Of a stretch of 64,000 bases of DNA, positions 39,159-58,854 are shown in pieces. Every line of letters begins with the position of its first letter. Position 1 is the stretch's first letter. The notes beneath the pieces are model-generated. The model saw nothing but the letters and a program-made list of their open reading frames with translations, had not been told where the DNA came from and ran no database searches. This DNA comes from Ruegeria atlantica (lineage in GTDB: Bacteria > Pseudomonadota > Alphaproteobacteria > Rhodobacterales > Rhodobacteraceae), in assembly GCF_001458195.1 (NCBI RefSeq), contig NZ_CYPU01000039.1:372093-436092 (forward strand). The letters are read 5' to 3'. The position numbers and the translations under genes are program-made.

Positions 39159-40163
39159 ATGCGCAATAAAGACAGAATCAAAATCGGCTTTTTGCTGTTT
39201 GACGGCTTTCCCATGGCCTGCCTGACCTCGGTAATCGAGCCGTTGCGGGCGGCCAATGAAATCGCCGGGCAAGAGGCGTTTTGCTGGTCGCTGCTGTCCG
39301 AGCGTCAACAGAAAGTACAATCCAGCGCAGGTGTCCGGTTCGAGGCCGAGCAATCTCTGGCCGACTGCAAGGATATCGACATCTTGTTCCTTCTCAGCAG
39401 CCCAACGTCCGGCTTTGATAATACAACCGTTGGCAACGGTGCTCTGCGCAGTCTTGGACGGCATGGCACTGTTTTGGGCGGGATTAGCGGTGGTGTTTTC
39501 CCATTGGTCCGGTCCGGGGTGATGGGGGGCCAACCTGTTTCCGTCCATTGGTGCTATGAGGCCGCATTTCTGGCTGAGTTTCCCGAAGTCGACTCGCGTA
39601 GCGAGGTGATCGTGAAAACGGCGACACGCTACACCGCAGCCGGTGCCGCTGCCGGGTTCGATCTGGCCCTGCATCTGATTGAAGATCGGCTGGGTGGCGA
39701 AGTCGCGCACGAGGTTGCCTGTTGGTTCCAACATCCGATGATGCGCGGGTCAGGGGTGCGGCAACAGGTTCCGACCACGACCGCGCCGGAAACCGGGGAC
39801 AGCCTTCCACCGTTGGTGTCGAGCTGCGTCGACCTGTTCGCCGGTCATATGAGCGATCCGATTTCCATCGCAGAGGCCGCACAGCAAATCGGGGTCACGC
39901 CACGCCAGGTGGAACGTGCTTTCAAACAGGCGACGGGCCAGAGCCCCAGCCATTACTATCGCGCAATGCGCATGAATGCGGCACGGCAGATGGTGGTCTA
40001 TACCAAAGACCCGATCGCAGATATCGCGGCTGCGATCGGGTATGGTTCAGTGGCGCCGCTTGTGACGCATTATCGGTCAGCATTTGGGCTAAGCCCAAGC
40101 GAAGACCGTCGCAGGATCAACCGCTTCCGTGTCGAAGGTAACGCGCCATTGCCGTCAGTCTGA
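39159..40163 (+). CDS. GlxA/AraC-family regulator, probably GbdR-like regulator of sarcosine catabolism
   Basis: A 334-residue regulator. The N-terminal half is a DJ-1/PfpI-like domain (IGFLLFDGFPMACLTSVIEPLRAANEI) and the C-terminal 100 residues hold two AraC helix-turn-helix motifs (ISIAEAAQQIGVTPRQVERAFKQATGQSP and DPIADIAAAIGYGSVAPLVTHYRSAFG). In Pseudomonas, GbdR of this architecture responds to glycine betaine and dimethylglycine and controls sarcosine oxidase. Here the gene ends 7 bases from soxG, convergent to soxBDAG, which makes the same role likely. Confidence 0.85.
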   Translation: MRNKDRIKIGFLLFDGFPMACLTSVIEPLRAANEIAGQEAFCWSLLSERQQKVQSSAGVRFEAEQSLADCKDIDILFLLSSPTSGFDNTTVGNGALRSLGRHGTVLGGISGGVFPLVRSGVMGGQPVSVHWCYEAAFLAEFPEVDSRSEVIVKTATRYTAAGAAAGFDLALHLIEDRLGGEVAHEVACWFQHPMMRGSGVRQQVPTTTAPETGDSLPPLVSSCVDLFAGHMSDPISIAEAAQQIGVTPRQVERAFKQATGQSPSHYYRAMRMNAARQMVVYTKDPIADIAAAIGYGSVAPLVTHYRSAFGLSPSEDRRRINRFRVEGNAPLPSV

Positions 40164-40170: not shown

Positions 40171-40731
40171 TTACAGCGCCGACCGCATTGCAGTGACGAT
40201 GGCATGATGCAACGATCCGGCGGATGAACGGGGGCCATAAATGCTGAACGCTTCATCTGACCGACAGAGAACAAAGCACCCAATGTGGTGAATTGAGCAA
40301 CGGGCGACGCTGCCCGCATCGATATTGCGCAGGTCCAGCATAGATAACAGTTCCAACACAGCCGGAATCTGATCACCGTTCAGGTCGAACCGTGTCCAAC
40401 CGTCGGTCTGTTCTGTCACCGACGCGGTATCGCCCAAAGCGGACTTCACCTGATCAGTAAGCTCTTCGTGCGTGTCAAAAGGCGCCTCGATCATCCACTG
40501 ATCCGGACCGGCCCAAAAGGCAGTGACAGTGTCACCTGCATGTTGGCCGATACCAGGTGCAGGGGCACCGATCAGTTTTGCCAGGGCTTTGCTGGCTTTG
40601 GTTTCCTGTCCCATCCGCGCGGCGGCGGATGCCAGTGCGGCGCCCGGAACTTCCCGGCACGTAACCCCGCCAACAGTGTCGACCTGCGGTTCGGACCCGC
40701 CCAATGCGGTTATTGCAACTAGATCATGCAC
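40171..40731 (-). CDS. soxG: Sarcosine oxidase gamma subunit
   Basis: A 186-residue subunit of heterotetrameric sarcosine oxidase, which oxidizes sarcosine to glycine and passes the methyl carbon to tetrahydrofolate. It resembles the GcvT-like gamma fold: AFWAGPDQWMIEAP, VTEQTDGWTRFDLNGD and ARCSIHHIGCFVLCR. I start at GTG 40731, nine bases after GGAGAG, inside the last codons of soxA; ATG 40755 lacks this spacing. It is the last gene of soxBDAG. Confidence 0.9.
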   Translation of the reverse strand: MHDLVAITALGGSEPQVDTVGGVTCREVPGAALASAAARMGQETKASKALAKLIGAPAPGIGQHAGDTVTAFWAGPDQWMIEAPFDTHEELTDQVKSALGDTASVTEQTDGWTRFDLNGDQIPAVLELLSMLDLRNIDAGSVARCSIHHIGCFVLCRSDEAFSIYGPRSSAGSLHHAIVTAMRSAL

Positions 40732-43669
40732 GCAGACGCTCTCCTTCGGGGTCAACGAAATGGGCCGATACGATTTCGACTTCGACGGTCAGGTCGGTCA
40801 ATGGGGACACAAGGCGCATCTTCTCGCCCATTCGGTTGGCACCGTCCTGCAAAAGACCCAGCCCGATATTGCTGTTCAGAATGGGCGAATACGCAGCCGA
40901 AGTGACATAGCCCTGATCGTGCGCGGCATCCACCGGGCCGGTCGTGTTCATCAAATGGCCACCAGCGGTGACTTTCTCTTCGGGCGATACCGGTTTGATC
41001 CCGACCAGCCGCAGGACATCCGGTTCTACCAAGGCCTCTCGTTCGGACAGGGTCGATCCGATGCCGTCTTTCTTTTTCGACACCATCTTACCCAATCCAA
41101 GATTCAATGCCGTTGTGGTGCCATTCAACTCGTTGCCGGCCGCGTGGCCCTTTTCGATCCGCATGACGCCCAGCGCTTCGGTGCCGTAAGGGACAACCTC
41201 AAATTCTTCACCTTCGGTCATCAGACGCCGCATCAGCGCATCGCCATAGCGTGAGGGCACGGCGATTTCGAACGCTAACTCTCCCGAGAATGAGATCCGG
41301 AAAAGCCGCGCCCGCAACCCGTCGCAAACCGTAATGTTGCCACAGCCCATGAACGGGAACGCGTCGTTTGAAATGTCGAATTCAGGGTCGACGATCTTTT
41401 GCAACAGCTTGCGCGAATTGGGACCAGCGACAGCATATTGCGCCCAGGATTCCGTGGTCGAGATCAGCTGCACATCCATATCCGGGAACAGGCATTGGCG
41501 CACAAATTCCATGTGACGATAGACATTTACCGCATTGGCCGTGGTCGTTGTGACGACAAAATGATCCTCGGCCAGACGCGCGGCTGTGCCATCGTCCATT
41601 ACCATGCCGTCTTCGCGAAGCATCAGGCCATAGCGGGTTTTTCCCACGGGAAGCTTGGTGAAACCGTTCGCGTAGACGCGGTTCAGGAAATCAGCCGCGT
41701 CCGCGCCCTGCACGTCGATTTTTCCAAGTGTCGTACAGTCGCACACCCCGACGGACGCGCGGGTCTGGCGCACTTCACGGTCCACTGATTCACGCCAATG
41801 AAGCTCACCGGGCAGGGGAAACCACTGCGCGCGCAGCCAGTTGCCGACTTCGACAAACACAGCGCCCTTCTCCTTGGCCCAATAATGCGAGGGCGTCAGG
41901 CGCGTGGGGTGGAATTCTTGTCCCTTCATCCGACCGGCGAAGGTGCTGATCGGAACAGGCGTGTAGGGCGGGCGGAAAATGGTTGTCCCTGTTTCGGGGA
42001 TCGATTTTCCGGCCACCTCGGCCATGATCGCCAATGCGCTGATGTTCGAGGTCTTGCCCTGATCAGTCGCCATGCCAAGGGTGGTATAGCGTTTCAGGTG
42101 TTCAACTGACCGGAACCCTTCCTGATAGCTGAGTTTGACGTCCTTGACGGTCACGTCATTTTGCTGGTCCAGCCAAGCGCGTTTGCAGCCTTCGACATAC
42201 CAGAACGGTTTCTGCGCGATCGGAGTATCCTCGGCCTCGGGCAAGACAGGCTGAGCAACGCTCAGCTCCAGCGCTGCCGCGGCAGCCTCGGCACCGGATT
42301 GCAATGCACCTTGCGTAGACATCACTCCGTTCGCTGCGCCCGCGACAGTCAATCCGACGGGCAGATTTGAACCGGGCACAAAGGCGGCCAGATCGTCGTT
42401 CCAGACCGGACGCCCGCGCTGATGGCAGGTCAGGTGCACATTCGGGTTCCAACCCCCCGAAACGCCCAGTGCGCCGCATTCCAGCGTGCGGGTCGAGCCG
42501 TCGGGCAGGGCAACTTCGACAAAGGTCAGACCAAGACGCCCCTTGGTATTCACAACCTGTGCGCCGCTCAGGACTTCGTAATCGTAGTTGACCGGAGCAT
42601 CCTCACGCACATCGACAACGGCGCAAATGTGAACGCCCTTGGCATGCAAGTCGGCGGCGGTGCGGTGACCGTCGTCGTTGTTGGTAAAGATCGCTACGCG
42701 TTGAGAGGCCGTAACCGCAAACCGATTGGCATAAGTTCGCAAGGCGCTGGCCATCATGATGCCGGGGCGGTCGTTGTTTTCAAACGCGATGGGCCGTTCA
42801 GTCGACCCCGCACACAGCAATGTCTTCTTGGTGTAAATGCGCCATAAGATCTGGCGCGGTTTACCTGCGGGCAGGGTGGCCACATGATCTCCGGTGCGTT
42901 CTACAGCGCCGTAGATGCCGTGGTCGAAGGCGCCGATGACAGTGGTTCTGGCCATCAGCCGGACGTTGGGCATACTTGACAGTTCGGCGACAGCCTGCGC
43001 GGCCCAATCGCTGCCGCTCTGATCTCCGACTGAGAATGTCTCGCTGTTCAGACGTCCGCCGAACCGAAAATCCTCATCAGCCAGAATAACGTCGGCACCC
43101 GCGCGCCCTGCGGTCAGGGCTGCCATCAAGCCCGATGGACCGGCGCCGATGATCAGCAGATCACAGTGGCGGAACCCTTTGTCATATTCGTCGGGGTCAG
43201 CCTCCATCGACAAAGAGCCAAGGCCAGCGGCGCGGCGAATGATCGGCTCATAGATTTTTTCCCAAAAAGCGGCCGGCCACATGAAGGTCTTGTAGTAGAA
43301 CCCGGCGGACAGGAAATTCGAGAACAGGTCGTTTACGCCAAGCGCATCGAATTTCAGGCTGGGCCAACGGTTCTGCGATTGCGCCTCAAGCCCGTCAAAC
43401 ATCTCGGTCGTTGTGGCCCGTGTGTTGGGTTCCTGCCGGTTGCCGGAGCGCAGCTCGACAATGCCATTGGGTTCCTCGGATCCGGCAGTCAGCAGGCCGC
43501 GCGGGCGGTGATACTTGAACGAGCGTCCGATCAATCGCACGTCATTGGCCAGCAAAGCCGAAGCCAGCGTATCGCCGGGATGGGCGGTATAGTTGCGGTT
43601 GTCGAACCGGAAGTTCACTGTTGTGTTGCGGTCGATCTGGCCACCGCTCAGTCTGTTGGATTGCGTCAT
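40724..43669 (-). CDS. soxA: Sarcosine oxidase alpha subunit
   Basis: A 981-residue subunit. Residues 1-100 form a 2Fe-2S-like ferredoxin fold without the cysteines (GDTLASALLANDVRLIGRSFKYHRPRG pattern). A dinucleotide-binding domain follows with LLIIGAGPSGLMAALTAGRAGADVILADE at about 170-200, binding NAD. The C-terminal 400 residues are a GcvT module that binds tetrahydrofolate, with the Asp-containing GCGNITVCDGLRARLFRISFSGELAFE segment. Its start overlaps the soxD stop by 4 bases and it overlaps soxG downstream. Length is normal. Confidence 0.95.
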   Translation of the reverse strand: MTQSNRLSGGQIDRNTTVNFRFDNRNYTAHPGDTLASALLANDVRLIGRSFKYHRPRGLLTAGSEEPNGIVELRSGNRQEPNTRATTTEMFDGLEAQSQNRWPSLKFDALGVNDLFSNFLSAGFYYKTFMWPAAFWEKIYEPIIRRAAGLGSLSMEADPDEYDKGFRHCDLLIIGAGPSGLMAALTAGRAGADVILADEDFRFGGRLNSETFSVGDQSGSDWAAQAVAELSSMPNVRLMARTTVIGAFDHGIYGAVERTGDHVATLPAGKPRQILWRIYTKKTLLCAGSTERPIAFENNDRPGIMMASALRTYANRFAVTASQRVAIFTNNDDGHRTAADLHAKGVHICAVVDVREDAPVNYDYEVLSGAQVVNTKGRLGLTFVEVALPDGSTRTLECGALGVSGGWNPNVHLTCHQRGRPVWNDDLAAFVPGSNLPVGLTVAGAANGVMSTQGALQSGAEAAAAALELSVAQPVLPEAEDTPIAQKPFWYVEGCKRAWLDQQNDVTVKDVKLSYQEGFRSVEHLKRYTTLGMATDQGKTSNISALAIMAEVAGKSIPETGTTIFRPPYTPVPISTFAGRMKGQEFHPTRLTPSHYWAKEKGAVFVEVGNWLRAQWFPLPGELHWRESVDREVRQTRASVGVCDCTTLGKIDVQGADAADFLNRVYANGFTKLPVGKTRYGLMLREDGMVMDDGTAARLAEDHFVVTTTTANAVNVYRHMEFVRQCLFPDMDVQLISTTESWAQYAVAGPNSRKLLQKIVDPEFDISNDAFPFMGCGNITVCDGLRARLFRISFSGELAFEIAVPSRYGDALMRRLMTEGEEFEVVPYGTEALGVMRIEKGHAAGNELNGTTTALNLGLGKMVSKKKDGIGSTLSEREALVEPDVLRLVGIKPVSPEEKVTAGGHLMNTTGPVDAAHDQGYVTSAAYSPILNSNIGLGLLQDGANRMGEKMRLVSPLTDLTVEVEIVSAHFVDPEGERLRA

Positions 43670-43966: not shown

Positions 43967-45217
43967 TCAATGCAGGTTGGGCTGATTGCCCACGCCTTTT
44001 TCGTCGATCATCCGGCCCGTGCGGAACCGGTCGAAGCGATAGGCCGTGGCGGTAGAGTGCGGTTCGTCCTTCGCCAGAAGATGCGCAAAACAGTAACCGG
44101 ATGCCGGGGTCGCCTTGAACCCGCCATAGCACCATCCGCCATTGAAATAGAGACCCTCGACCGGAGTGCGATCGATGATGGGTGAGCCATCCATCGACAT
44201 GTCCATAACACCGCCCCACATACGCAGCAGGCGGGCGCGCCCGATCATCGGCATCAATGAGACGCCGCCTTCGCAGACATCCTCGACCACAGGCAGATTT
44301 CCACGTTGGGCGTAGGTGTTATAGCCGTCGATATCACCGCCAAAGACCAACCCGCCTTTGTCGGACTGGCTGACATAGAAATGTCCGGCCCCATAGGTGA
44401 TGACGCTGGGCAGAACCGGCTTCAGACCCTCGGACACAAACGCCTGTAACACGTGGCTTTCAATCGGCAGTCGCATGCCCGCCATGTTCATCACCCGGCC
44501 CGAGTTACCGGCAACAGCGCAGCCGACTTTGTTAGCCCCGATAAAGCCCTTTGAGGTCTCGACGCCCAGGCATTTGCCGTTCTCGATACGCAGACCAGTG
44601 ACTTCGCAATTCTGGATGATGTCGACACCGTGGCTGTCCGCAGACCGGGCAAAGCCCCAGGCCACGGCATCATGGCGCGCGGTGCCGCCCCGTCGCTGGG
44701 CCAGACCGCCTTTGATCGGGAAACGCGCGTCGTCGAAATTCAGATAGGGGTGTTCTTTGCGTACCTGATCGGCATCCAGCAATTCGGCATCTGCACCGTG
44801 CAGGATCATCGCATTGCCGCGCCGCGTATAAGCGTCGCGCTGACCATCCGTGTGGAACAGGTTGAGTATTCCGCGTTGGCTCATCATGGCGTTGTAGTTC
44901 AGGTCTTGTTCAAGCCCTTCCCACAGTTTCATCGAAAATTCATAGAACGGCTCATTCCCGTCCAGCATGTAGTTCGAGCGAACGATCGTCGTGTTCCGCC
45001 CGACATTGCCTCCGCCGATCCAGCCCTTTTCGACAACCGCGACATTGCGATGACCGTAGACCTTCGACAGATAATGGGCAGTTGCCAGCCCATGACCACC
45101 ACCGCCTATGACGATAATGTCGTAATGGGCTTTGGGTTCGGGGTCACGCCAGACCGGTTTCCACCCTTTGTGGCCGGTAAGCGCCTCTTTGATGACTCGA
45201 AAGCCTGAATATCGCAT
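43967..45217 (-). CDS. soxB: Sarcosine oxidase beta subunit
   Basis: A 416-residue flavoprotein subunit that carries FAD and the sarcosine-oxidizing site, with covalent FMN near the alpha-beta interface. The FAD motif IIVIGGGGHGLATAHYL starts at about residue 34 and is followed by WIGGGNVGRNTTIVRSNYM. The C-terminal NGGWCYGGFKATPASGYCFAHLLA binds flavin. It is the first gene of soxBDAG, 77 bases after a LysR gene on the same strand, with a direct repeat in the gap that may be an operator. Confidence 0.96.
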   Translation of the reverse strand: MRYSGFRVIKEALTGHKGWKPVWRDPEPKAHYDIIVIGGGGHGLATAHYLSKVYGHRNVAVVEKGWIGGGNVGRNTTIVRSNYMLDGNEPFYEFSMKLWEGLEQDLNYNAMMSQRGILNLFHTDGQRDAYTRRGNAMILHGADAELLDADQVRKEHPYLNFDDARFPIKGGLAQRRGGTARHDAVAWGFARSADSHGVDIIQNCEVTGLRIENGKCLGVETSKGFIGANKVGCAVAGNSGRVMNMAGMRLPIESHVLQAFVSEGLKPVLPSVITYGAGHFYVSQSDKGGLVFGGDIDGYNTYAQRGNLPVVEDVCEGGVSLMPMIGRARLLRMWGGVMDMSMDGSPIIDRTPVEGLYFNGGWCYGGFKATPASGYCFAHLLAKDEPHSTATAYRFDRFRTGRMIDEKGVGNQPNLH

Positions 45218-45278: not shown

Positions 45279-45311
45279 CATTGGTGTGTCTGAATCAGAC
45301 CCATTGGTGTG
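45279..45311 (-). promoter_or_regulatory. Direct repeat and palindrome upstream of soxB
   Basis: CATTGGTGTG occurs at 45279-45288 and again at 45302-45311, 23 bases apart, with the palindrome GTCTGAATCAGAC (45288-45300) between them. Two direct half-sites about two helical turns apart are typical of AraC-family binding. The site is 62-94 bases before the soxB start; its right part overlaps the end of the LysR gene. Confidence 0.4.
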
Positions 45312-46158
45312 ACGAGCCGGGAACCAATTGTGAAAACCATGATACAACGGCGTCAACCTCGGGTGATGCGCGCTGCACGGCCAGAAAGTACCCTTCGGCC
45401 GCTGGAGCAGTCTCATCAAAGGCACGCGCGACCTGTCCGGTCTGCAGAGCGTGATCGGCGATAAGTGCATTCACCAAGGCCACGCCGTTCCCGGAAGCCG
45501 CCAATTGCAAGGCGAGCCCGTAAGAATCGACATAATAGGCCGGGGTATGGATTTTATGACCGGTGACTTCCGCCCATGTGGACCAGTTGTCTGACGTTCC
45601 CACGGCCTCGATCAGGGGCAAGTCCTGACAAGCGCCAACCAAGGCAGGCGCTTTTACTGCGATCAGGTCATTCGGCAGTAACGGTTTTGCATCCCGCCCG
45701 ACTTGTTTTTCTGACCCGAACCGGATTTCAACATCGGCGCGCAGGGCCGAGTATTCATCCGGCCAGATCGTGCTGACAAAGCGAATGGACGTATCTGGGT
45801 TTTGGTCGCGAAACTGGGGCAGGGCAGGGGAAATCAACCATTCGATGATGCTGATTGACGCCGCAACAGTAACGTGTCTGGCCCGTTCCTTTGCCAAATA
45901 CGGAGAGGCGGCGGATTGCAGCAATTGCAGTGCGGCTTCGACCTGCGGCAGCAGCTTTCGGCCTTCATCCGTCAAGGAAAGACCGCGCGGATGCCGATGA
46001 AACAGGACGACGCCCAGCCGGGATTCCAGCGACCTGATTTGCTGGCTTACGGCGGATTGGGTCAATCCGATTTCATCCGCCGCAGCTGTTGAGCTCAACC
46101 TTCGGGCCGCGGCCTCGAAAGACCTGAACCATGTAAGGGGGGGCAGTGTTTTGGGCAT
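45295..46158 (-). CDS. LysR-family regulator, GcvA-like
   Basis: A 287-residue LysR protein. It begins MPKTLPPLTWFRSFEAAARRLS, typical of the GcvA/AmpR subgroup, with the helix-turn-helix in DEIGLTQSAVSQQIRSLESRLG and a ligand domain from about residue 90. A TTG two codons upstream is possible but the ATG at 46158 fits the family. It lies divergent from the six-gene flavin monooxygenase operon and upstream of soxB on the same strand, so it could control either; the divergent operon is the usual target. Confidence 0.88.
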   Translation of the reverse strand: MPKTLPPLTWFRSFEAAARRLSSTAAADEIGLTQSAVSQQIRSLESRLGVVLFHRHPRGLSLTDEGRKLLPQVEAALQLLQSAASPYLAKERARHVTVAASISIIEWLISPALPQFRDQNPDTSIRFVSTIWPDEYSALRADVEIRFGSEKQVGRDAKPLLPNDLIAVKAPALVGACQDLPLIEAVGTSDNWSTWAEVTGHKIHTPAYYVDSYGLALQLAASGNGVALVNALIADHALQTGQVARAFDETAPAAEGYFLAVQRASPEVDAVVSWFSQLVPGSSHQWV

Positions 46159-46209
46159 GTGCAACCGACCTAGTAGCTTTGTTAATACCTAAGACCCAAC
46201 TTCTTTCGT

Positions 46210-46239
46210 TTGTCAAAGTGCCGGCCAATCAAAGATATT
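46210..46239 (+). promoter_or_regulatory. Promoter of the flavin monooxygenase operon
   Basis: TTGTCA at 46210-46215, 18 bases, GATATT at 46234-46239. A transcript would start near 46246, about 20 bases before the GTG start. CTTTCGTTTGTCAAAG at 46203-46218 contains T-N11-A and may be the LysR site. Confidence 0.45.
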
Positions 46240-46265
46240 TCTCGTACTCAAGATTGGGGGATAAC

Positions 46266-46865
46266 GTGCAGCCGGAAATTCGTAAAATAGTGACCTTCGA
46301 CGAAGAAGTTCTGATCGAAGGATATCGCAAAGCCGAACGGCCGTGGCGCATGTTTGCTGTGGCAGCGGTTGTTACCAACCCTTGGGCTGGACGTTTCGTC
46401 GAAGATCTACGGCCGGAAATTTTGGCCTATGGCCCAATCCTGGGTCAAGAACTGACCGACAGGATGATCGCGCTGGCCGGAAGCGGCGAGGCGATTGAGG
46501 CCTATGGCAAGGCTGCGGTTGTGGGGCTGGACGGAGAGGTCGAGCATGCCTCGGGCCTGATCCACACGCTGCATTTCGGAAACATCTTCCGGCAGGCGGT
46601 TGACGCCAAGTCCTATCTTTCATTCACCAACACCCGAGGCCCGGCGAACACACCGATCATGGTGCCACTGATGGACAAGAATGATGCGGGCCGTCGGTCA
46701 CACTATCTGACGCTGCAATTCGCCATCCCCGACGCCCCCCGTGCGGATGAGATCGTCGTGGTTTTGGGCGGAGCAACCTCGGGCCGTCCGCATCATCGCA
46801 TTGGCGACCGTTATCAGGACTTGAAGGATCTGGGCCATGACGTGGACAACCCGGCCTCGGTCTGA
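46266..46865 (+). CDS. Amino acid synthesis (AA_synth, PF06684) family protein
   Basis: A 199-residue protein starting with GTG at 46266 after GGGGGAT. The segments FAVAAVVTNPWAGRFVEDL, YGKAAVVGLDGEVEHASGLIHTLHFGN and STTSGRPHHRIGDR-like GGATSGRPHHRIGDRYQDL match the PF06684 family, which has no proven reaction despite its name. The open frame continues upstream across the promoter, so the longer start is rejected. It is the first gene of an operon that continues with a hydrolase overlapping by 29 bases. Confidence 0.85.
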   Translation: MQPEIRKIVTFDEEVLIEGYRKAERPWRMFAVAAVVTNPWAGRFVEDLRPEILAYGPILGQELTDRMIALAGSGEAIEAYGKAAVVGLDGEVEHASGLIHTLHFGNIFRQAVDAKSYLSFTNTRGPANTPIMVPLMDKNDAGRRSHYLTLQFAIPDAPRADEIVVVLGGATSGRPHHRIGDRYQDLKDLGHDVDNPASV

Positions 46866-47616
46866 CATCGGCGGGCTCGCCGCTATAGACGAAGGTGAAG
46901 GCCCGCTTGTGGTTCTGCTCCATGGCGTTGGCCTGCGGGCCGAAGCCTGGGGCGCGCAAATCGATGCGCTGTCTGCCGCCGGGTATCGTGTTCTGTGTCC
47001 GGAGATGCCCGGGCACGGGGAAACCCCGTTCCATGGTGCTATCGGGCTGGATGGGTACGCCAACCCGATCGCGGCCCGATTGACCGAACCTGCCGTTCTG
47101 ATTGGGCATTCCATGGGCGCTTTGATCGCTTTGGACATTGCGGCATCGGGTCATGATCAGGTGAGAGGCGTTGCCGCGTTGAACGCAATTTACCGCCGAA
47201 CCTCCGAAGCGCGTGCGGCTGTCACGACCCGCGCGGCGGCACTGGATGCTGCGGCCATAAACGATCCCACCGTGACTTTGCAGCGTTGGTTCGGCGATCA
47301 GGTTTCAGAAGAAGGCGAAGCCTGTTCGCGTTGGCTGAAAGATGTCCACCCGGGCGCATACAAAGCGGCCTATACCATCTTCGCCGAAAGCGATGGCCCG
47401 ACTGACGCACAACTGGGGCAAATCAAATGCCCGGCACTGTTTATGACGGGCGGGGATGAGCCAAATTCCACACCCGGCATGTCGCAGGGCATGGCGCAGC
47501 AAGTGACAAATGGCCGGGTAAAGATAATCCCAAATGCCGCCCACATGATGCCCATGACGCACCCGGCTGACGTTAACGCCAATTTGCTTGAGTTCGTTCG
47601 GAGGTGCCTGCCATGA
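46837..47616 (+). CDS. Alpha/beta hydrolase
   Basis: A 259-residue cytoplasmic hydrolase. LVVLLHGVGLRAEAWGAQI forms the oxyanion region and GHSMGA the nucleophile elbow; the acid Asp lies near MTGGDEPNSTP and the His in IIPNAAHMMPMTHP. It resembles carboxylesterase or RutD-like members associated with flavin monooxygenases. It overlaps the AA_synth gene by 29 bases and the flavin reductase gene by 4 (ATGA), so translation is coupled. It could hydrolyse an ester, lactone or carbamate intermediate; the substrate is unknown. Confidence 0.88.
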   Translation: MTWTTRPRSDIGGLAAIDEGEGPLVVLLHGVGLRAEAWGAQIDALSAAGYRVLCPEMPGHGETPFHGAIGLDGYANPIAARLTEPAVLIGHSMGALIALDIAASGHDQVRGVAALNAIYRRTSEARAAVTTRAAALDAAAINDPTVTLQRWFGDQVSEEGEACSRWLKDVHPGAYKAAYTIFAESDGPTDAQLGQIKCPALFMTGGDEPNSTPGMSQGMAQQVTNGRVKIIPNAAHMMPMTHPADVNANLLEFVRRCLP

Positions 47617-48533
47617 CCGAGATTGACACTCGCGCCCTGCGTGATGCATTTGGCAACTTCATGACCGGTGTAACGGTTGTGATGACCCGCGATTCCTCTG
47701 GAAACCCGGTCGGGTTCACGGCGAATTCCTTCACGTCCGTGTCGCTTGACCCGCCTTTGCTGTTGGTGTGTCCCGGCAGGTTTCTGTCCAGCCACGATAC
47801 CTTTGCCGGATGCACACATTTTGCGGTGAATGTTCTGGCAGATGGGCAGCAGGATGTTTCAAACACCTTCGCAAGTTTCAAGGGCGACCGATTTGGTCGG
47901 GTGGCGCATCGCGACGGAGCCAATGGCATGCCGCTGATCGACGGGGCGCTGGCACAGTTTAGCTGTGAAACGCATCAGGCGCTGCCCGCAGGCGACCACA
48001 CGGTTCTGATTGGCCGTGTCACAGACTTCACCCATATCGGTGGAAACGGTCTGGGTTATGTGAACGGGTCGTACTTCAGTCTTGGACTTGAGCGTGAGAT
48101 GGACGCGCAGGTTCCGACAATCTGCGGCGCGATTGTTGCGGCAAATGGCAAAATTCTTCTGGAACGCTACGAAGGCGCATTTCGCCCGGTTCAAATCGCC
48201 GGTGCAGAACCCGGGGGGCAACGCAACAGGCTGGCACAGGGCCTTTCCGATCGGGGCATTCAGGCGCAGATCGAACAGGTCTATTCTTCATTCAACGATG
48301 CCGAAACGAACCTGCACTATACGTTCTTCCTGGCGTCCTGCGGTCAGACCATCCAGATGGACAATGCTGAATGGGTAGACATCGGCGATCTGGCCGATCT
48401 GACCTATGCCAGCAATAGTTTGCACCACATGATGACCCGCTACGCGCTTGAAGCCCGCGAAGGCGTTTTCGGGCTGTATCTCGGTGACGCCGAACGCGGC
48501 GAAATTCACAGTTTCGGTAAAGGAGCCATTTGA
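47613..48533 (+). CDS. Flavin reductase with C-terminal Nudix-like domain
   Basis: A 306-residue protein. Residues 1-155 are the FMN-binding split-barrel of two-component flavin reductases (RDAFGNFMTGVTVVMTR, GFTANSFTSVSLDPPLLLVCPG, NGLGYVNGSYFSL). Residues 160-306 are additional; the segments GAIVAANGKILLERYE, a helix at LAQGLSDRGIQAQIEQVYSSF and HYTFFLA suggest a degenerate Nudix fold lacking the catalytic REUxEE box. It should supply reduced flavin to the adjacent luciferase-like monooxygenase. Start ATG at 47613, behind GGAGG, overlaps the hydrolase stop. Confidence 0.87.
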   Translation: MTEIDTRALRDAFGNFMTGVTVVMTRDSSGNPVGFTANSFTSVSLDPPLLLVCPGRFLSSHDTFAGCTHFAVNVLADGQQDVSNTFASFKGDRFGRVAHRDGANGMPLIDGALAQFSCETHQALPAGDHTVLIGRVTDFTHIGGNGLGYVNGSYFSLGLEREMDAQVPTICGAIVAANGKILLERYEGAFRPVQIAGAEPGGQRNRLAQGLSDRGIQAQIEQVYSSFNDAETNLHYTFFLASCGQTIQMDNAEWVDIGDLADLTYASNSLHHMMTRYALEAREGVFGLYLGDAERGEIHSFGKGAI

Positions 48534-49567
48534 TGGAGTTTTCACTGTTTGCCCACGTGGAACGTCTGACCCCGAATCAGCCTCACGATGTTCTGTATGA
48601 TGAGTTCGTGAGCCTGGTGAAGATGGCTGATGACGGGGGCATGCGGGCAGTTTGGACAGGTGAACATCACGGCATGGAGTTCACCATTGCCCCCAATCCG
48701 TTTCTGTCGCTGGTCGATCTGGCGCACCACACGCGCAATGTGCGGTTGGGGACCGGAACGGTAATTGCGCCGTTCTGGCATCCCATCAAACTGGCAGGTG
48801 AGGCCGCCGCAGCGGATCAAATGACAAAAGGGCGTATCGAGTTGGGGGTCGCGCGCGGTGCGTATTCCTATGAATACGAACGTCTGATGCCAGGAATGGA
48901 CGCTTGGGAGGCGGGGCAGCGCATGCGCGAGTCCACCCCGCTGTTGCCTCAGATCTGGAAGGGCGATTGTGCCCATGAAGGCGAGTTCTATGCGTTTCCG
49001 GCCGCAACTTCGGCACCGAAGCCATATCAGGAGGACGGCCCGCCAATCTGGATCGCCGCGCGGGATCCTAACAGCCACGAATTCGGCGTTCACAACGGAT
49101 TCAATATTCAGGTCACCCCGCTGTGGCAGGGTATGGAAGAGATCGAGACCCTGATGGGGCGGTTCAACGATGCCTGTGACAGCTACGAGGGGCCGCGCCC
49201 CAAGATCATGCTGTTACACCACACCTATGTCGGCAAGGACGACGACGATGTTGCGCAGGGCGTGCAAAATCTGCGCCGGTACTACAATTACTTTGGTGCA
49301 TGGTTCATGAACAAACGGCCAGTTGAACAGGGCTTGATCAAACCGATTACCGAAGCCGAGATGGACGCGAACCCGATGTATACCAAAGAAAAATTGGGCC
49401 GTGATCTGACCGTTGGGACTGCCCAACAGGTGATCGACAGGATCAAGCGCTATGAAGATCTGGGTTATGACGAGTTTTCGTTCTGGGTCGATAGCGGCAT
49501 GACCAACGAACGTAAGCGCGCCTCTTTGGCGCGATTCATCGACGACGTGATGCCGGCATTTCAGTGA
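48533..49567 (+). CDS. Luciferase-like (LLM) flavin-dependent monooxygenase
   Basis: A 344-residue TIM-barrel oxygenase of the bacterial luciferase family. It begins MEFSLFAHVERL and contains VWTGEHHGMEF, VRLGTGTVIAPFWHPIKLAGEAAAADQMTKGRIELGVARG and a C-terminal GTAQQVIDRIKRYEDLGYDEFSFW; these are flavin- and substrate-binding parts of the family. The start overlaps the reductase stop by one base (TGATG). Partners in the operon are the reductase, a hydrolase and an aldehyde dehydrogenase, so it likely oxidizes a small organic substrate giving an aldehyde. The substrate is unknown. Confidence 0.88.
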   Translation: MEFSLFAHVERLTPNQPHDVLYDEFVSLVKMADDGGMRAVWTGEHHGMEFTIAPNPFLSLVDLAHHTRNVRLGTGTVIAPFWHPIKLAGEAAAADQMTKGRIELGVARGAYSYEYERLMPGMDAWEAGQRMRESTPLLPQIWKGDCAHEGEFYAFPAATSAPKPYQEDGPPIWIAARDPNSHEFGVHNGFNIQVTPLWQGMEEIETLMGRFNDACDSYEGPRPKIMLLHHTYVGKDDDDVAQGVQNLRRYYNYFGAWFMNKRPVEQGLIKPITEAEMDANPMYTKEKLGRDLTVGTAQQVIDRIKRYEDLGYDEFSFWVDSGMTNERKRASLARFIDDVMPAFQ

Positions 49568-49575
49568 GGACCACC

Positions 49576-51054
49576 ATGGGAAACTTACCGCATTTTCAGC
49601 TGTTCATTGATGGCGCCTGGACCGAAGGTTCAGCCTCGCAGGTTATGACGTCCGAGAACCCGGCCACAGGCCAGGGGTGGGCCACATTCGCGTGCGCCTC
49701 GCCCAGTGATGTTGAACGCGCCATCGCCGCCGCCAAACGGGTTTTGGATGACCCGGGATGGCGGGATATGACACAGACGCAGCGGGGCAAGCTGCTGTAT
49801 CGCCTTGCCGATCTGGTGGCTGAGAATGCTGCGCGTCTGGGTGAGTTGGAGACGACCGACAGCGGAAAGCTGTTGGCGGAAACCTCGGCACAAACCGGAT
49901 ATGTCGCCGATTACTACCGCTACTATGCGGGTCTGGCAGACAAGGTCGAAGGCACGGTCCTGCCCATCGACAAGCCGGACATGCATGTCTTTACCTCACG
50001 AGAACCGATTGGCGTCGTGGCCGCGATCGTGCCGTGGAATGCGCAAATGTTCCTGACCGCGACCAAGCTGGGCCCGGCGTTGGCTGCCGGGTGTTCCGTG
50101 GTGCTGAAAGCATCGGAAATCGCGCCCGCACCCATGCTGGAATTCGCCAAGCTGATTGAACAGGCTGGGTTCCCGTCCGGCGTTGTGTCGGTCATCACCG
50201 GTGACGCCGAAAACTGTGCAATTCCACTGACCCGCCATCCTGATGTCGACCGAATTGCTTTTACCGGCGGGCCAGAGACCGCCCGCCATGTGGTGCGAAA
50301 CTCGGCTGAGAACTTTGCGGTAACGTCATTGGAACTGGGTGGGAAATCCCCGATCCTCGTGTTTGAGGACGCCGATATGGACGGTGCAGCAAACGGCCTG
50401 ATCGCAGGTAACTTCGGCGCATCCGGTCAGAGTTGCGTGGCGGGAACGCGCGGACTGGTGCATCGGTCAATCCTTGGGCCTCTGGTCGAGCGGATCGCCG
50501 AAAAGGCCAGCGCCATCCGGTTGGGTGATCCCTTGCAGCCGGAAACGCATGTTGGTCCGTTATGTACCGCGGCGCAGGTGCGCAAGATCGAAGAGACCTT
50601 AGGCAAAGCGCAGGGGCAGGGCGCGACGATCCATTTCGGTGGAAAAGCTGCCGACCGTCCCGGGAATTACATGAACCCCACTTTGGTAGAATGCGCATCC
50701 CCCGAAACCGAAACGTTGAAAATCGAAATGTTCGGGCCGGTGATGTCCTTGCTGCCATTCGATACCGAAGAAGAGGCTATCGCGCTGGCAAACAGCACCC
50801 CTTACGGGTTGGGCTCGGGCGTGTTCACGCAGAACCTTGCGCGCGCACACCGTGTGTCAAAACGGGTCCGGGCCGGTATCTGCTGGGTGAACACCTATCG
50901 CGCGATCTCACCCATTGCGCCGTTCGGTGGGTTCAAACAGTCGGGATATGGTCGCGAGGCCGGGGTTGAAGCGATACTGGATTACACCAGAACCAAGACA
51001 ACCTGGATCAGCACCGCGCAAGAGCCGATGGCGAACCCCTTCATAATGCGTTAA
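49576..51054 (+). CDS. NAD(P)-dependent aldehyde dehydrogenase
   Basis: A 492-residue aldehyde dehydrogenase. The catalytic Cys lies in GASGQSCVAGTRGL and the general-base Glu in VTSLELGGKSP; VPWNAQMFLTATKLGPALAAG and FGGFKQSGYGREAG are the expected cofactor and C-terminal segments. I start at ATG 49576 behind GAGG; GTG 49564 is an alternative. It sits 8 bases after the monooxygenase and probably oxidizes the aldehyde produced by the pathway to the acid. Confidence 0.92.
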   Translation: MGNLPHFQLFIDGAWTEGSASQVMTSENPATGQGWATFACASPSDVERAIAAAKRVLDDPGWRDMTQTQRGKLLYRLADLVAENAARLGELETTDSGKLLAETSAQTGYVADYYRYYAGLADKVEGTVLPIDKPDMHVFTSREPIGVVAAIVPWNAQMFLTATKLGPALAAGCSVVLKASEIAPAPMLEFAKLIEQAGFPSGVVSVITGDAENCAIPLTRHPDVDRIAFTGGPETARHVVRNSAENFAVTSLELGGKSPILVFEDADMDGAANGLIAGNFGASGQSCVAGTRGLVHRSILGPLVERIAEKASAIRLGDPLQPETHVGPLCTAAQVRKIEETLGKAQGQGATIHFGGKAADRPGNYMNPTLVECASPETETLKIEMFGPVMSLLPFDTEEEAIALANSTPYGLGSGVFTQNLARAHRVSKRVRAGICWVNTYRAISPIAPFGGFKQSGYGREAGVEAILDYTRTKTTWISTAQEPMANPFIMR

Positions 51055-51097
51055 GGATTCGGCAAAGCAGGGATTTCCGAAGGGAAGTGAGGGGCGC

Positions 51098-51964
51098 ATG
51101 AAACTGACAAAACCAAACTTCCCATCACCGGCCGATACCGCCGAGCGCAAGGCCATTGCCCCTGTAATATGCTATCCGCCGGATGCGCTGAAGCAGCCTG
51201 ATCTGAACGGTTTGAGCAAGCTTCGCGAGGATGCGGTAAAGGTGGCCGAGGTCACTGCGGCGCCACGCGATGCGGCATGCATTGATGTTCCGGCTGGCGC
51301 TTTCGTCAGGGTGGTTTCGGTCGATGGCCCTCAGGTCGGTGACCTGAACATGTGGAATAAGCATGACCTGACTGAGCGGTTCTATTCCGGCAAAACCCGT
51401 GCGCTGCATGGCACGCATCTGTCTACCGGCGACCGGATGTGGTCGAGCTTTCCCAACATGCGACCGATGGCGACGATCATTGCCGATACTCTGGACTGGT
51501 ATGGGTTCGATACCTATGGCGGATCGGTCCATGACGTGATTGGCACACGGTGTGATCCGTATACCGGGCGTTTGCTGTCGGGGGATGACTATCACTATTG
51601 CTGTCATTCGAACCTGACCCGCGCGCTGGCCAGCTATTGCGACCTGCCACTGCATGAGGCCGAAATGCTGGTGCATGACGTGCTGAACGTGTTCATGTGC
51701 ACTGGATTTACCCGCGATACCGGCCAGTATTTTATGAAGGCCAGCCCAGTACGACCCGGCGATTATCTCGAGTTCTACGCTGAGATTGACCTGATCGTTG
51801 GTCTGTCTGCGTGTCCCGGCGGGGATTGTTCATCGGAACATTCTTCGGATGCCGCTGCCTGCCATCCGCTGTTGATGGAGGTCTATGACCCCGGCGAGAA
51901 AGCGCGTACGGCGCATGTGCAACCGGATCGATCAAAATATGACCGCTCCCATGGATGCAGCTAA
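51098..51964 (+). CDS. DUF1989 (urea carboxylase-associated) family protein
   Basis: A 288-residue protein of the DUF1989 family, whose members often neighbour urea or guanidine carboxylases. Features: DVPAGAFVRVVSVDGPQVGDLNMWN, DDYHYCCHSNLTRAL with a possible metal-binding Cys/His cluster, and a C-terminal SACPGGDCSSEHSSD. The reaction is not established. It follows the aldehyde dehydrogenase after 43 bases with an AAGTGAGGGG ribosome site. Its stop overlaps that of the convergent M20 deacetylase gene. A urea-related role would fit the creatinase and ureohydrolase further right. Confidence 0.88.
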   Translation: MKLTKPNFPSPADTAERKAIAPVICYPPDALKQPDLNGLSKLREDAVKVAEVTAAPRDAACIDVPAGAFVRVVSVDGPQVGDLNMWNKHDLTERFYSGKTRALHGTHLSTGDRMWSSFPNMRPMATIIADTLDWYGFDTYGGSVHDVIGTRCDPYTGRLLSGDDYHYCCHSNLTRALASYCDLPLHEAEMLVHDVLNVFMCTGFTRDTGQYFMKASPVRPGDYLEFYAEIDLIVGLSACPGGDCSSEHSSDAAACHPLLMEVYDPGEKARTAHVQPDRSKYDRSHGCS

Positions 51965-53118
51965 CGGGTGAGGCGATGACCTAAGCGGGTTAGCATTCTG
52001 CAGCACATGTCCAACTGTTCAATCTCGAGGAACTCGTCCGCCTTGTGGGCCTGTGCGATTGAACCTGGCCCGCAAACGATCGCGTGAACGCCAAGCTTCT
52101 GAAACAACCCGGCCTCGGTCGCAAAAGCGACAACACCTGTACCGTTGGCTCCGGTCAGTTCGGCCACCAGATCACGGGCTGCGTTTTCTTCCATCGGCTC
52201 AAGGCCTTCGACCTCGGCGATAGCCTCTTGTGTGATGTTCGAGTCGCTGTGGACCGCTTGCATCTCCGGTAACAAGGAATGCTCCACGTAGTCCGCAAGG
52301 GTCTTTTTGACGAGGTCGGCGTCACTTGCCTGCACGGGTCGCATCTCCCACAAAACCTCAGCCTTGCTAGCTATGACGTTATGGGCAACGCCCCCAGAGA
52401 TTTGGCCGATATTGACCGTCGTCCAAGGCGGCTCGAACCGGCTGTCGGCGGGTGCGCGGGACTTGAGGATATGGCGCAGCTCCAGCAGTTTGCTGATGTA
52501 TCGCGCGGCATACTCCGCAGCATTTACCCCGTCATCGGGGGCAGAGCTGTGTCCCTCTAACCCGGTAAAACGGGTCGTACATTCAAAGCAGCCCTTATGA
52601 CCCTCAATCACACGCATCTCGGTCGGCTCACCGATGATGGCGATGTCCGGAACGATGCCACGTTCAGACAGGTCGTCGACTAGGGTTTGCGCACCAAGGC
52701 AGCCGACTTCCTCGTCGTAAGTAAAGGCAAAGTGCAGCGGCTGGGTCAGCTTCCCGACATCCAGTGTTTCGCCGAAAGCCACCGCCGCAGCGATAAAGCC
52801 CTTCATGTCGCATGTGCCGCGACCGTAGAGTTTGCCGTCACTTTCCGCCAACTTAAACGGATCTGTCGTCCAGTCCTGATCGGCCACCGGCACCACATCC
52901 GTATGGCCGGACAGAAGGATACCACCGGGTTGATCGGGGCCGATCGTGGCAAACACATTGGCCTTGGTGCCAGTCTTGTCCCGCGTGACGATACATCGCG
53001 CGCCCAGTGCCTCGAGCCGTTCGGTCAGATAGCTGATCATTTCCAGATTCGAATCTGCTGACACCGTCTCAAAAGCGATCAGGTCCGCTAATAGTTCTAG
53101 GGTTCTCGGTAAGGTCAT
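51961..53118 (-). CDS. argE: M20-family deacetylase, acetylornithine deacetylase-like
   Basis: A 385-residue metallohydrolase of the ArgE/DapE type. The metal ligands are visible: His in LLSGHTDVVP, Asp in GRGTCDMKGF, Glu-Glu in TYDEEVGCLG, Glu in IIGEPTEM and His near the C terminus in SIAQAHKADEF. Acetylornithine deacetylase is the nearest named function, but its position after a DoeA-like gene suggests it may remove an acetyl group from a related diamino acid such as N-acetyl-2,4-diaminobutyrate. Start ATG 53118 overlaps the stop of the upstream gene by 4 bases (ATGA); the open frame to 53157 is rejected. Confidence 0.85.
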   Translation of the reverse strand: MTLPRTLELLADLIAFETVSADSNLEMISYLTERLEALGARCIVTRDKTGTKANVFATIGPDQPGGILLSGHTDVVPVADQDWTTDPFKLAESDGKLYGRGTCDMKGFIAAAVAFGETLDVGKLTQPLHFAFTYDEEVGCLGAQTLVDDLSERGIVPDIAIIGEPTEMRVIEGHKGCFECTTRFTGLEGHSSAPDDGVNAAEYAARYISKLLELRHILKSRAPADSRFEPPWTTVNIGQISGGVAHNVIASKAEVLWEMRPVQASDADLVKKTLADYVEHSLLPEMQAVHSDSNITQEAIAEVEGLEPMEENAARDLVAELTGANGTGVVAFATEAGLFQKLGVHAIVCGPGSIAQAHKADEFLEIEQLDMCCRMLTRLGHRLTR

Positions 53119-54299
53119 GGCTTTACAAACAGCTTTCTGGGGCGGTTGCAGAAACACTCGGCAGGTCCGGATTCTGTGATGAGGATCGGCTCAGTGATCT
53201 CCAACCCCCAATCATCCATCCAGAGGCCGGGCATGAAGTGAAAGGTCATGCCAGGTTCCAGCACTGTCTCATCCTCGGGGCGCAGGGATATCGTGCGTTC
53301 ACCCCAGTCCGGCGGATAACTCAGGCCAATCGGATACCCGCATCGCGCGCCGCGCTCGATACCCGCCCGTTCCAGCGGGGCAGCCAGAGCAAACGCGATA
53401 TCACGCGCCTGATTGCCGGCACGCGCGGCTTCTAGTCCCGCCTCAAGCCCTTCTACCAGGGCGGCTTCAGCACGAAGCAAATAGTCAGGTGGCTTACCCA
53501 AAAAGACCGAGCGGCAGAAGGGCGCGTGGTAACGGCGATAGCAGCCTGACAGTTCGAAAAATGTACACTCTCCGGATTTGAATGGTTCACCATCCCAAGT
53601 CAGGTGCGGTGCAGCGGCATCCGGGCCGGACGGGAGCAGCGGCACAATGGCTGCGTAATCGCCCCAATCCTCGCCAACTCCGGTGACTGCGTCATGGTAG
53701 ATTTGCGCGACGAGGTCGTTCTTGCGCATACCCGGTTCGATGCGCTCCAATACGCCGTCGGTCACATGCTCGGATATCCGGGCAGCTTTTCGCATTAGCG
53801 CAATTTCCTCATCGGATTTCACGGCACGCTGCCAGTTCACCAATGTGTTTGCGTCGACCAGCTCTGCGTCGGGCAACTCCGCCAGCAAAGTCAGGTGCGC
53901 TTTGGCTGAATAATAATAATTGTCCAACTCGACACCGATCCGCCCCTTCGCGATACCAGTATCCGCAATCAGCGCTGCCAGATCCTGCATGGGGTGACGC
54001 ACGGTGGATTGTACGTATTCGTCCGCATAGCCGTGGATCCGGTCATTGGACATCCAAACAGTTTTACGCGCGCCGTTGGCATCCTGATTTCGGCCCCACC
54101 AGATCGGGTCGGCATCCTGAAGCACAAGTACCCCTTGATGCACATAGAACGACCAGCCCTCATAGCCCGTCAGCCATGCCATGTTTGAAGGATCTTCGAC
54201 AAACAAAGCATCCAACCCGGCGGCTGCCATGGCGGCGCGGGCCTTTGCCAATCTGCGGTCGTACTCGGCGCGGCTGAATGCCGGATCTGAATGGGGCAT
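53115..54299 (-). CDS. doeA: M24-family amidohydrolase, ectoine hydrolase (DoeA/EutD)-like
   Basis: A 394-residue pita-bread enzyme. It closely follows my memory of DoeA/EutD: DPSNMAWLTGYEGWSFYVHQ near the N terminus, NWQRAVKSDEEIALMRKAARI, the probable catalytic His232 in APHLTWDGEPF, YPIGLSYPPDWGERT and MTFHFMPGLWMDDWGLEITE. The Asp-Asp-His metal ligands of aminopeptidase-type M24 enzymes are absent, as in creatinase and DoeA. DoeA opens the ectoine ring to N-acetyl-diaminobutyrate. The usual partner doeB is not here; an M20 deacetylase gene follows instead with a 4-base overlap. The substrate may be ectoine or another cyclic amidine. Confidence 0.78.
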   Translation of the reverse strand: MPHSDPAFSRAEYDRRLAKARAAMAAAGLDALFVEDPSNMAWLTGYEGWSFYVHQGVLVLQDADPIWWGRNQDANGARKTVWMSNDRIHGYADEYVQSTVRHPMQDLAALIADTGIAKGRIGVELDNYYYSAKAHLTLLAELPDAELVDANTLVNWQRAVKSDEEIALMRKAARISEHVTDGVLERIEPGMRKNDLVAQIYHDAVTGVGEDWGDYAAIVPLLPSGPDAAAPHLTWDGEPFKSGECTFFELSGCYRRYHAPFCRSVFLGKPPDYLLRAEAALVEGLEAGLEAARAGNQARDIAFALAAPLERAGIERGARCGYPIGLSYPPDWGERTISLRPEDETVLEPGMTFHFMPGLWMDDWGLEITEPILITESGPAECFCNRPRKLFVKP

Positions 54300-54384
54300 T
54301 TTAGGCTCCTGCCTTGGGCGAGTTTTGTTGACAGAACTTGACGAATGCGATCACGTCAATGGGCATCACGGGAAAGACACCAAA

Positions 54385-54396
54385 TTGAGAATCTCA
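54385..54396. promoter_or_regulatory. Palindrome in the divergent M24 gap
   Basis: TGAGA-A-TCTCA (54386-54396) lies in the 195-base gap between the divergent doeA-like and M24 genes. TTGAGAAT is repeated at 54442-54449. It could be an operator shared by the two directions; no regulator gene is adjacent. Confidence 0.35.
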
Positions 54397-54494
54397 CCTA
54401 CCCCCCATCGCGGCGGCCAAAAGCTGATCAATGGCACTTGCTTGAGAATTGACGCAGACGCGCAGGTTATCCGCTTTTTCTCTGAGGTCACGGA

Positions 54495-56344: not shown

Positions 56345-56493
56345 AAACTCGGCTGCTTCCTTTCTAATAGTTACCCACGTGTCATATTTTGGTTGCGTGC
56401 CGCACCCTGCATGTCCTTAAATGGCCTCGACAGGTCTTTGAGATCCGGATGAACCGGGCAAGCAGGGACCGCACAGGGGAGACTAATCGGTAA

Positions 56494-57585: not shown

Positions 57586-57696
57586 TCAGGAATTACCCCG
57601 CTCGTGTCACCAATATGTGCGGGGAAAGGCATGCGTGGGTTACCCCGTGGCCCAACCGCAATGACAAAGATTAACGGGAAAAACAGGGAGTTAACG

Positions 57697-58788: not shown

Positions 58789-58807
58789 GCCGGTTCTGAA
58801 ATACACG

Positions 58808-58831
58808 GCCGGGGCCGCCATTGGCCCCGGC
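58808..58831 (+). terminator. Attenuating hairpin after binding-protein gene
   Basis: A perfect 9-base GC stem (GCCGGGGCC and complement) with loop GCCATT, 20 bases after the binding-protein stop. No long T run follows, so partial read-through into the permeases is likely. Confidence 0.6.
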
Positions 58832-58854
58832 TTACCTAAGACCAAGGGACGCAG

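Follow-up and report, generated by a model that had tools for sequence, protein, structure and literature searches.

Described systems close to the locus considered here include the trigonelline (Tgn) pathway of Acinetobacter and the N-methylglutamate dehydrogenase operon, mgdABCD, of Ruegeria pomeroyi. The locus is a five-gene cassette of Ruegeria atlantica, encoding an AA_synth-family protein, an alpha/beta hydrolase, a flavin reductase, a flavin oxygenase of the luciferase-like monooxygenase (LLM) type and an aldehyde dehydrogenase (ALDH). It lies at positions 46266-51054 of a 64,000-nucleotide stretch of contig NZ_CYPU01000039.1 (assembly GCF_001458195.1), and this whole stretch is referred to as the window. 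In the work of Perchat et al. (2018) on A. baylyi ADP1, the trigonelline ring is reportedly cleaved at C5-C6 and the aldehyde oxidised by TgnC; hydrolysis by TgnD is said to give succinate semialdehyde, methylamine, formate and CO2, with TgnE as the succinate-semialdehyde dehydrogenase (SSADH). According to two further papers, TgnA/TgnB open the trigonelline ring (PMC8269262), and TgnF of A. baylyi, which stimulates the TgnE-dependent oxidation of succinate semialdehyde, has a homologue in the family once called DUF1185 (PF06684; PMC7913881). The latter report provides a role for AA_synth, a family in which a preliminary description of the window had seen no proven reaction.

Homarine (N-methylpicolinate), which is plentiful in plankton, is the other N-methylated pyridine of relevance, and a pathway of this kind is already known. 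Ferrer-Gonzalez et al. (2026, Nature Microbiology 11:1531) are said to have described an operon, homABCDER, in Rhodobacterales, SAR11 and SAR116; its five structural genes, accompanied by one regulator, reportedly lead to N-methylglutamate. PMC13390433, which cites that study, states that Mgd takes part in homarine catabolism and that tmaR (SPO1584) adjoins mgdABCD (SPO1585-1588) in R. pomeroyi; among the matches listed, its statement on homarine catabolism is the only gene-level one found. In the North Pacific, homarine is said to make up as much as 3% of particulate carbon (PMC8269262), while a later correction holds that its concentration had been overstated.

Judged by the homology of its enzymes, the cassette very probably encodes a pathway of the N-methylpyridinium ring-opening type. 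By analogy with known chemistry, homarine in particular is the probable substrate, a claim made with more reserve, and the cassette is likely to correspond to the published homarine pathway.

A conserved five-gene cassette

All four junctions between the cassette genes overlap, by 29, 13, 4 and 4 bases, and the unit is these five genes together with a divergent LysR gene. When the LLM was searched against 292 genomes of the order, 93 had a match at 1e-60; these fall into three groups: A1 (40 genomes, 71-100% LLM identity to the window), A2 (35 genomes, 60-69%) and B-only (18 genomes with just a 34-40% relative); three A1 genomes, including that of the window, also carry a B-type LLM. AA_synth, hydrolase, LLM and ALDH occur together in 40/40 A1 loci, each with a divergent LysR gene beside AA_synth, and this grouping is not due to chance. 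In 28/40 A1 loci the reductase gene separates those for hydrolase and LLM; the enzyme seems replaceable by one encoded elsewhere. Loci without a flavin reductase in this place are L038, L040, L041, L042, L046, L048, L049, L056, L063, L064, L067, L069 and L240. The six open reading frames (ORFs) that the preliminary description had placed at 46266-51964 each score above the cut-off of the Pfam family named for them (Table 1). As a six-gene unit, however, they hold only in part: five of the genes are conserved together (the reductase being missing in 12/40 loci), but the sixth, encoding a DUF1989 protein, adjoins them in 6/40 only.

Ser92 (in the motif GHSMG) and His236 of the hydrolase are conserved across loci, as are Cys291 and Glu257 of the ALDH. 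The model of the LLM, whose translation likely starts at the ATG at 48533, has a bacterial luciferase fold (predicted local distance difference test, pLDDT, 87.1), with 8cbb, 7bip and 3fgc as its top structure matches. Residues 7-304 of the reductase, near full length, are homologous to PDB 3rh7, a structure that in turn matches the reductase of the S. meliloti pSymA operon at 675.5 bits over 312 residues. RidA has a chorismate-mutase-like fold. The fold of the PF06684 family has been described in the same terms (PMC2954203), and a RidA-like fold for AA_synth would follow from this shared description only. That candidate found no support in the structure search, in which 3byq and 2qtp, both DUF1185 structures, were the sole Foldseek matches of the AA_synth model (88.5) at E < 0.001.

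Relationship to the trigonelline pathway

By sequence comparison, each of the five cassette genes has its homologue in the Tgn set, in the order TgnF, TgnD, TgnA, TgnB and TgnC. The components of a Tgn-type set are all found, namely LLM with reductase, ALDH with hydrolase (both in 40/40 loci) and AA_synth, with reductase identities of 35-51% in the loci of the order. The oxygenases nevertheless fall apart in a tree of 77 LLM proteins, in which A. soli and A. haemolyticus served as stand-ins for A. baylyi TgnB. A1 is a separate clade (core of 27 rows, 100/99; 31 rows including four divergent members, 99/95), the divergent rows L240, L241, L247 and L248 having long branches, of which two are marked as uncertain. 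The window LLM lies outside the clade that holds the Acinetobacter proteins, to which clade it is about 57-69% identical (59-60% to the Acinetobacter LLMs). A2 takes in Burkholderia and enterobacterial loci besides those of Acinetobacter soli and A. haemolyticus. Support for placing the Sinorhizobium branch with A2 is weak (80/63); the pSymA set of S. meliloti is flanked by nodL/noeB and nifT.

The two clades differ in their genetic setting. The A2 loci, drawn from two sources, comprise 109 distinct ones, on which regulators and SSADH were counted, while clade identity means and clade-specific positions were computed on 117, with 8 counted twice. Genomes and loci enter every statistical test as if they were independent, which they are not. 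A LysR gene of the window type accompanies 39/42 A1 loci against 0/109 A2 loci, and a GntR-like regulator (a label taken from the Chimaeribacter annotation) 0/42 against 98/109. SSADH, defined by at least 45% identity to the A. soli enzyme and sought in flanks of at most about 8-10 kb around each locus, was found near 0/46 A1 and 28/109 A2 loci (Fisher p 2e-5; loci not independent). It is thus not universal near A2 either, and a less similar ALDH lies near two of the 46 A1 loci (L044, L065). The lack of a nearby SSADH in A1 fits a product other than succinate semialdehyde.

The enzymes have also diverged to different degrees. Mean identity between the clades, compared with that within A1/A2, is 65 vs 77/74 for the LLM, 57 vs 79/73 for the ALDH, 41 vs 56/57 for the hydrolase, 41 vs 54/54 for the reductase and 67 vs 83/76 for AA_synth; the drop is about 20 points for the ALDH, 15 for the hydrolase, 13 for the reductase, 12 for AA_synth and 11 for the LLM, in which 107 positions are conserved in both clades. 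That ALDH and hydrolase have moved most, with no SSADH nearby, would be expected if the same ring opening yielded different fragments.

As for distribution, 17 sampled genomes of the window's genus have one clade in 10 cases, the other in 4, neither in 3 and both in none. A low-GC genome (G870; 1.4 Mb, locus 30% GC) encodes AA_synth, hydrolase, LLM and ALDH without the reductase, and an LLM of this type occurs in 11/162 genomes of its order, all of one genus; A1 seems to reach this type of genome, on a long branch flagged as unsure. At L240 (11938-14510; a 1.4 Mb genome, locus 30% GC), a gene for a short-chain dehydrogenase/reductase (SDR) of 242 aa and an ORF of 609 aa without a Pfam match precede the cassette, the SDR being a candidate imine reductase.

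The adjacent mgdABCD operon

Beyond the LysR gene, four genes run from 45217 down to 40171, faced by an AraC/DJ-1-type regulator (39159-40163) that resembles TmaR; on all of these the preliminary description was silent. Three of them belong to sarcosine-oxidase-type families and, because of their synteny and sequence identity with tmaR-mgdABCD of R. pomeroyi, the four are read as mgdABCD, encoding N-methylglutamate dehydrogenase. The comparison uses genome G614, which we take to be R. pomeroyi DSS-3 because one of its proteins matches PDB 3di4 at 100% over 278 aligned residues and this structure is presumably SPO0365 of that strain. The same order, a regulator followed by D, C, B and A on the opposite strand, is found there at 1.677-1.683 Mb, and two further genes of SoxB type detected in G614 reach no more than 68% and 50% identity to the window mgdA.

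For GmaS, the first methylamine enzyme, a glutamine-synthetase-family gene of R. pomeroyi near tmaR-mgd (L267), named from its sequence and place, served as the query. It matches 92 genomes, 84 of which also have mgdA. The window genome gave no GmaS match at 1e-120 and has four glutamine-synthetase-family proteins, compared with six in the GmaS-bearing relatives G121 and G129; Mgd is therefore unlikely to be fed there from methylamine by GmaS. Counted at an identity of at least 73% (the list has a gap between 73% and 69%), mgdA of the window type is present in 26/40 A1, 27/35 A2 and 12/18 B-only genomes, and in 52/199 genomes without such an LLM; the difference between A1 and the last group has a p of 5e-6, with phylogeny not corrected for. 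GmaS matches are lacking in 33 of 117 mgd-bearing genomes (28%), and Mgd may hence often have another source of N-methylglutamate.

Homarine as the probable substrate

A route from homarine can be drawn up by homology to the trigonelline pathway as far as the fate of an imine. In step one, the reductase would supply reduced flavin and the LLM would cleave the C5-C6 bond of the ring; the product, an N-formyl-N-methyl enamide, would carry at C5 an aldehyde, which the ALDH would turn into the C5 carboxylate, 2-(N-methylformamido)pent-2-enedioate. The hydrolase would then take off formate to leave an enamine/imine, N-methyl-2-iminoglutarate, with AA_synth possibly helping its release or tautomerisation. 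The imine could be reduced to N-methylglutamate, or hydrolysed to 2-oxoglutarate and methylamine, and the divergent mgdABCD would oxidise N-methylglutamate to glutamate and a one-carbon unit. The core of the argument is structural: with the carboxylate at C2 instead of C3, Tgn chemistry should end in N-methyl-2-iminoglutarate, that is, oxidised N-methylglutamate, and since its reduced form is the substrate of an enzyme encoded next door, homarine suggests itself as the starting compound. The outline of the preliminary description, oxygenolytic breakdown with oxidation of an aldehyde to the acid, is likely right in view of the reductase, LLM, hydrolase and ALDH.

A more far-reaching version is tentative and, on present evidence, rather doubtful. 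It would have N-methylglutamate formed directly from homarine via the imine and not from free methylamine, so that Mgd in genomes with mgdABCD and without GmaS would be a homarine enzyme misread as a methylamine enzyme, and AA_synth would handle the enamine/imine in both the homarine and the trigonelline pathway. If true, this step would be the first defined reaction for the AA_synth family.

It is important to point out that a number of observations weigh against homarine. Only 6 LLM positions are clade-specific (at least 90% in each clade), so the oxygenase itself shows no sign of a new substrate; the use of such residues as proof of substrate was dropped, the positions being so few. A1 and A2 co-occur in 0/292 genomes, where 4.8 would be expected (p 0.004 without phylogeny), a mutual exclusion that is the behaviour of isofunctional sets and is unexplained if A1 acts on homarine. 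The mgd genes are as common with the Tgn-type clade A2 (27/35) as with A1, are found near A2 cassettes at L098 (= L148), L104, L131 and L186, and adjoin the A1 cassette in one genus only (6/40 loci). Nor is mgd without gmaS particular to A1: it is seen in 6/26 A1, 9/27 A2, 0/12 B-only and 18/52 other genomes (A1 vs others p 0.44), and for lack of enrichment the absence of GmaS was ruled out as an A1 signature. The cassette has no imine reductase. R. pomeroyi DSS-3 has neither A1 nor A2, just a distant B-type LLM (37%), so it must either use other genes for both compounds or handle one of them with the B set. This strain nonetheless draws homarine down rapidly (PMC12817926), and PMC8269262 reports that growth of R. 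pomeroyi on homarine fell short of that on trigonelline and finds it unlikely, on steric grounds, that TgnAB acts on homarine.

Several of these points would be accommodated by a second, isofunctional trigonelline pathway that opens the same ring through the same first three reactions and ends in succinate semialdehyde and methylamine, with SSADH encoded elsewhere and Mgd acting on methylamine-derived N-methylglutamate. The five homologous enzymes in the same order, the 65% LLM identity between clades with its few clade-specific positions, the strict exclusion of A1 and A2 in 292 genomes and the retention of AA_synth, reported to assist TgnE, all speak for it. Such a pathway is still considered unlikely, as it does not sit well with the SSADH counts (0/46 vs 28/109 loci), the other regulator family, the divergence of ALDH and hydrolase beyond that of the oxygenase, or the failure to find GmaS in the window genome, though 21/40 genomes of the clade do have this enzyme.

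Less probable again is some other N-methylated or N-heterocyclic substrate, neither homarine nor trigonelline, such as N-methylisonicotinate, N-methylpyridone carboxylates or a related betaine. The substrate cannot be read from the sequence, and the distant clade B LLM of the window genome lies in a seemingly carnitine-type cluster, which implies that this enzyme group is not tied to one context; on the other side, A1 and the Tgn type are neighbouring clades that share the 107 conserved LLM positions, and the association with mgd fits an N-methyl substrate, so that this option is given little weight. The Rut-like scheme raised by the preliminary description, in which pyrimidines or hydantoins would be degraded and DUF1989 would deal with the urea set free, can hardly be upheld. 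Reductase and hydrolase share superfamilies with RutF and RutD, but their scores are far under the curated cut-offs (82.8 vs 254.75 and 50.3 vs 238.5 bits); RutA is not among the best 25 of 27 families listed for the LLM, the rest of the genome not having been searched for RutA, RutB and RutC, and DUF1989 is separable from the cassette.

Control region, DUF1989 and other neighbouring genes

The features of the locus are collected in Table 1.

Table 1. Positions, strands and family evidence for the cassette, its control region and the flanking genes of the window.
Feature	Position	Strand	Evidence and remarks
AraC-type regulator with DJ-1/PfpI domain, TmaR-like	39159..40163	+	Pfam HTH_18 above cut-off; DJ-1_PfpI 25.7 bits, just below cut-off 26.6; 57% to syntenic R. 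pomeroyi gene
mgdD-like, N-methylglutamate dehydrogenase gamma-type subunit	40171..40755	-	no Pfam match; 51% to syntenic R. pomeroyi gene
mgdC-like large subunit	40724..43669	-	NCBIfam soxA family 1322.6 bits; 74% to syntenic R. pomeroyi gene
mgdB-like small subunit, 95 aa	43666..43953	-	Pfam SoxD 100.3 bits; 76% to R. pomeroyi
mgdA-like subunit	43967..45217	-	NCBIfam soxB family 693.3 bits; 78% to R. pomeroyi gene beside tmaR
LysR regulator of cassette (candidate)	45295..46164	-	Pfam HTH_1 and LysR_substrate; divergent from AA_synth
Divergent control region	46165..46265	.	block TTGTTAATACCTAAGACC..TTCTTTCGTTTGTCAAA conserved in close relatives; candidate operator
AA_synth (PF06684), TgnF homologue	46266..46865	+	Pfam PF06684 240.8 bits, above cut-off
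Alpha/beta hydrolase, TgnD homologue, proposed deformylase	46837..47616	+	Pfam Abhydrolase_6 90.9 bits, above cut-off
Flavin reductase, TgnA homologue	47604..48533	+	Pfam Flavin_Reduct 130.4 bits, above cut-off
LLM-type flavin oxygenase, TgnB homologue	48530..49567	+	Pfam Bac_luciferase 163.4 bits, above cut-off
Aldehyde dehydrogenase, TgnC homologue	49564..51054	+	Pfam Aldedh 517.8 bits, above cut-off
DUF1989 protein, PDB 3di4 type	51098..51964	+	Pfam DUF1989 157.7 bits, above cut-off; neighbour of cassette

The LysR protein probably controls the cassette. It is GcvA-like, as described, with a score of 188 bits, but stays under the GcvA family cut-off of 288. The conserved block of the control region comes from an alignment of 7 sequences, 6 of them informative (L205, in the wrong orientation, was ignored), and a repeat search of 46165..46265 found no inverted repeats.

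The DUF1989 gene, which starts 43 bases past the ALDH stop and whose product is close to PDB 3di4 (453 bits), is a neighbour of the cassette. Genes of this type are present in 53/54 genomes of the genus and 272/394 of the family, and a DUF1989 gene adjoins the cassette, together with mgd, in 6/40 A1 loci, all of the window's genus. Inspection of 20 of the 53 genus loci found the cassette directly upstream in 8 (with mgd beyond it in 7 of these), mgdA directly beside DUF1989 without the cassette in 3, and neither cassette nor mgd within about 10 kb in 9. The presence throughout the genus and the loci without a cassette rule out DUF1989 as a member of the pathway, and because such loci exist with and without the cassette, the block from LysR to ALDH looks to have been acquired or deleted as a whole, with mgd on one side of it and a resident DUF1989 gene on the other. 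The nitrogen- or urea-handling step proposed for this protein falls away as well, since the gene is separable from the cassette and scores far below the curated urea-amidolyase-associated cut-offs (UAAP2 50.2 vs 284.7 bits, UAAP1 32.7 vs 205.95 bits). A second DUF1989 match in the window genome (G000:C23:21927-22430; L002) lies inside an 882-codon open frame and, judged by size, is probably of the trimethylamine N-oxide (TMAO) demethylase type.

Further clusters were noticed in passing. A second, B-type set is found in the window genome (G000:C19:22494-23522; L109) and in R. pomeroyi (L237, 9443-16076), with LLM identities of 34-37%, ALDH of 52-54% and AA_synth of 68-70%, alongside genes for BKACE, 3-hydroxyacyl-CoA dehydrogenase, enoyl-CoA hydratase and RidA, surroundings that we take to be a carnitine-type cluster; in the R. 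pomeroyi set, one 703-aa protein combines the flavin reductase with a family III CoA-transferase. Downstream in the window, 51961-63721 holds an M20 deacylase (acetylornithine-deacetylase family), three M24 creatinase/prolidase-type genes, an Amdase-type gene, a binding-protein ABC transporter and an arginase-family gene; this looks like a separate catabolic cluster, and much of it also lies 3' of the cassette in close relatives. An ORF at 35259-36191 resembles an IS5-type transposase, judged by eye from the sequence, with no family search run.

Comparison with known systems

Should homarine prove to be the substrate, the cassette, recognised by its LLM clade, its regulator and the lack of a nearby SSADH, could serve as a marker for scoring genomes for homarine use. 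Where mgdABCD is intact and GmaS is lacking, caution is due against taking mgd by itself as proof of methylamine use, and two families gain a clearer context, AA_synth as a core member and DUF1989 as a neighbour.

With the Rut pathway, the cassette shares only the superfamilies of flavin reductase, LLM oxygenase and alpha/beta hydrolase. With mgdABCD/tmaR of R. pomeroyi, the window has in common the gene order, at 51-78% identity, and the TmaR-like regulator; unlike that operon, the one in the window adjoins a ring-cleavage cassette, in a genome that gave no gmaS match. R. pomeroyi DSS-3 has no member of the A1 LLM clade. The homABCDER operon is said to comprise five structural genes and a regulator, as does the cassette with its LysR gene; the cassette moreover adjoins mgd. 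Among known systems, Tgn comes nearer to the cassette than any other, Rut included. The cassette differs from the Tgn pathway in its separate LLM clade, in a LysR gene in place of a GntR-type regulator, in having no SSADH (TgnE) nearby, and in its ALDH and hydrolase, for which identity between the clades is about 57% and 41%, respectively; it shares with the Acinetobacter pathway homologues of TgnF, TgnD, TgnA, TgnB and TgnC, in the order found in A. soli.

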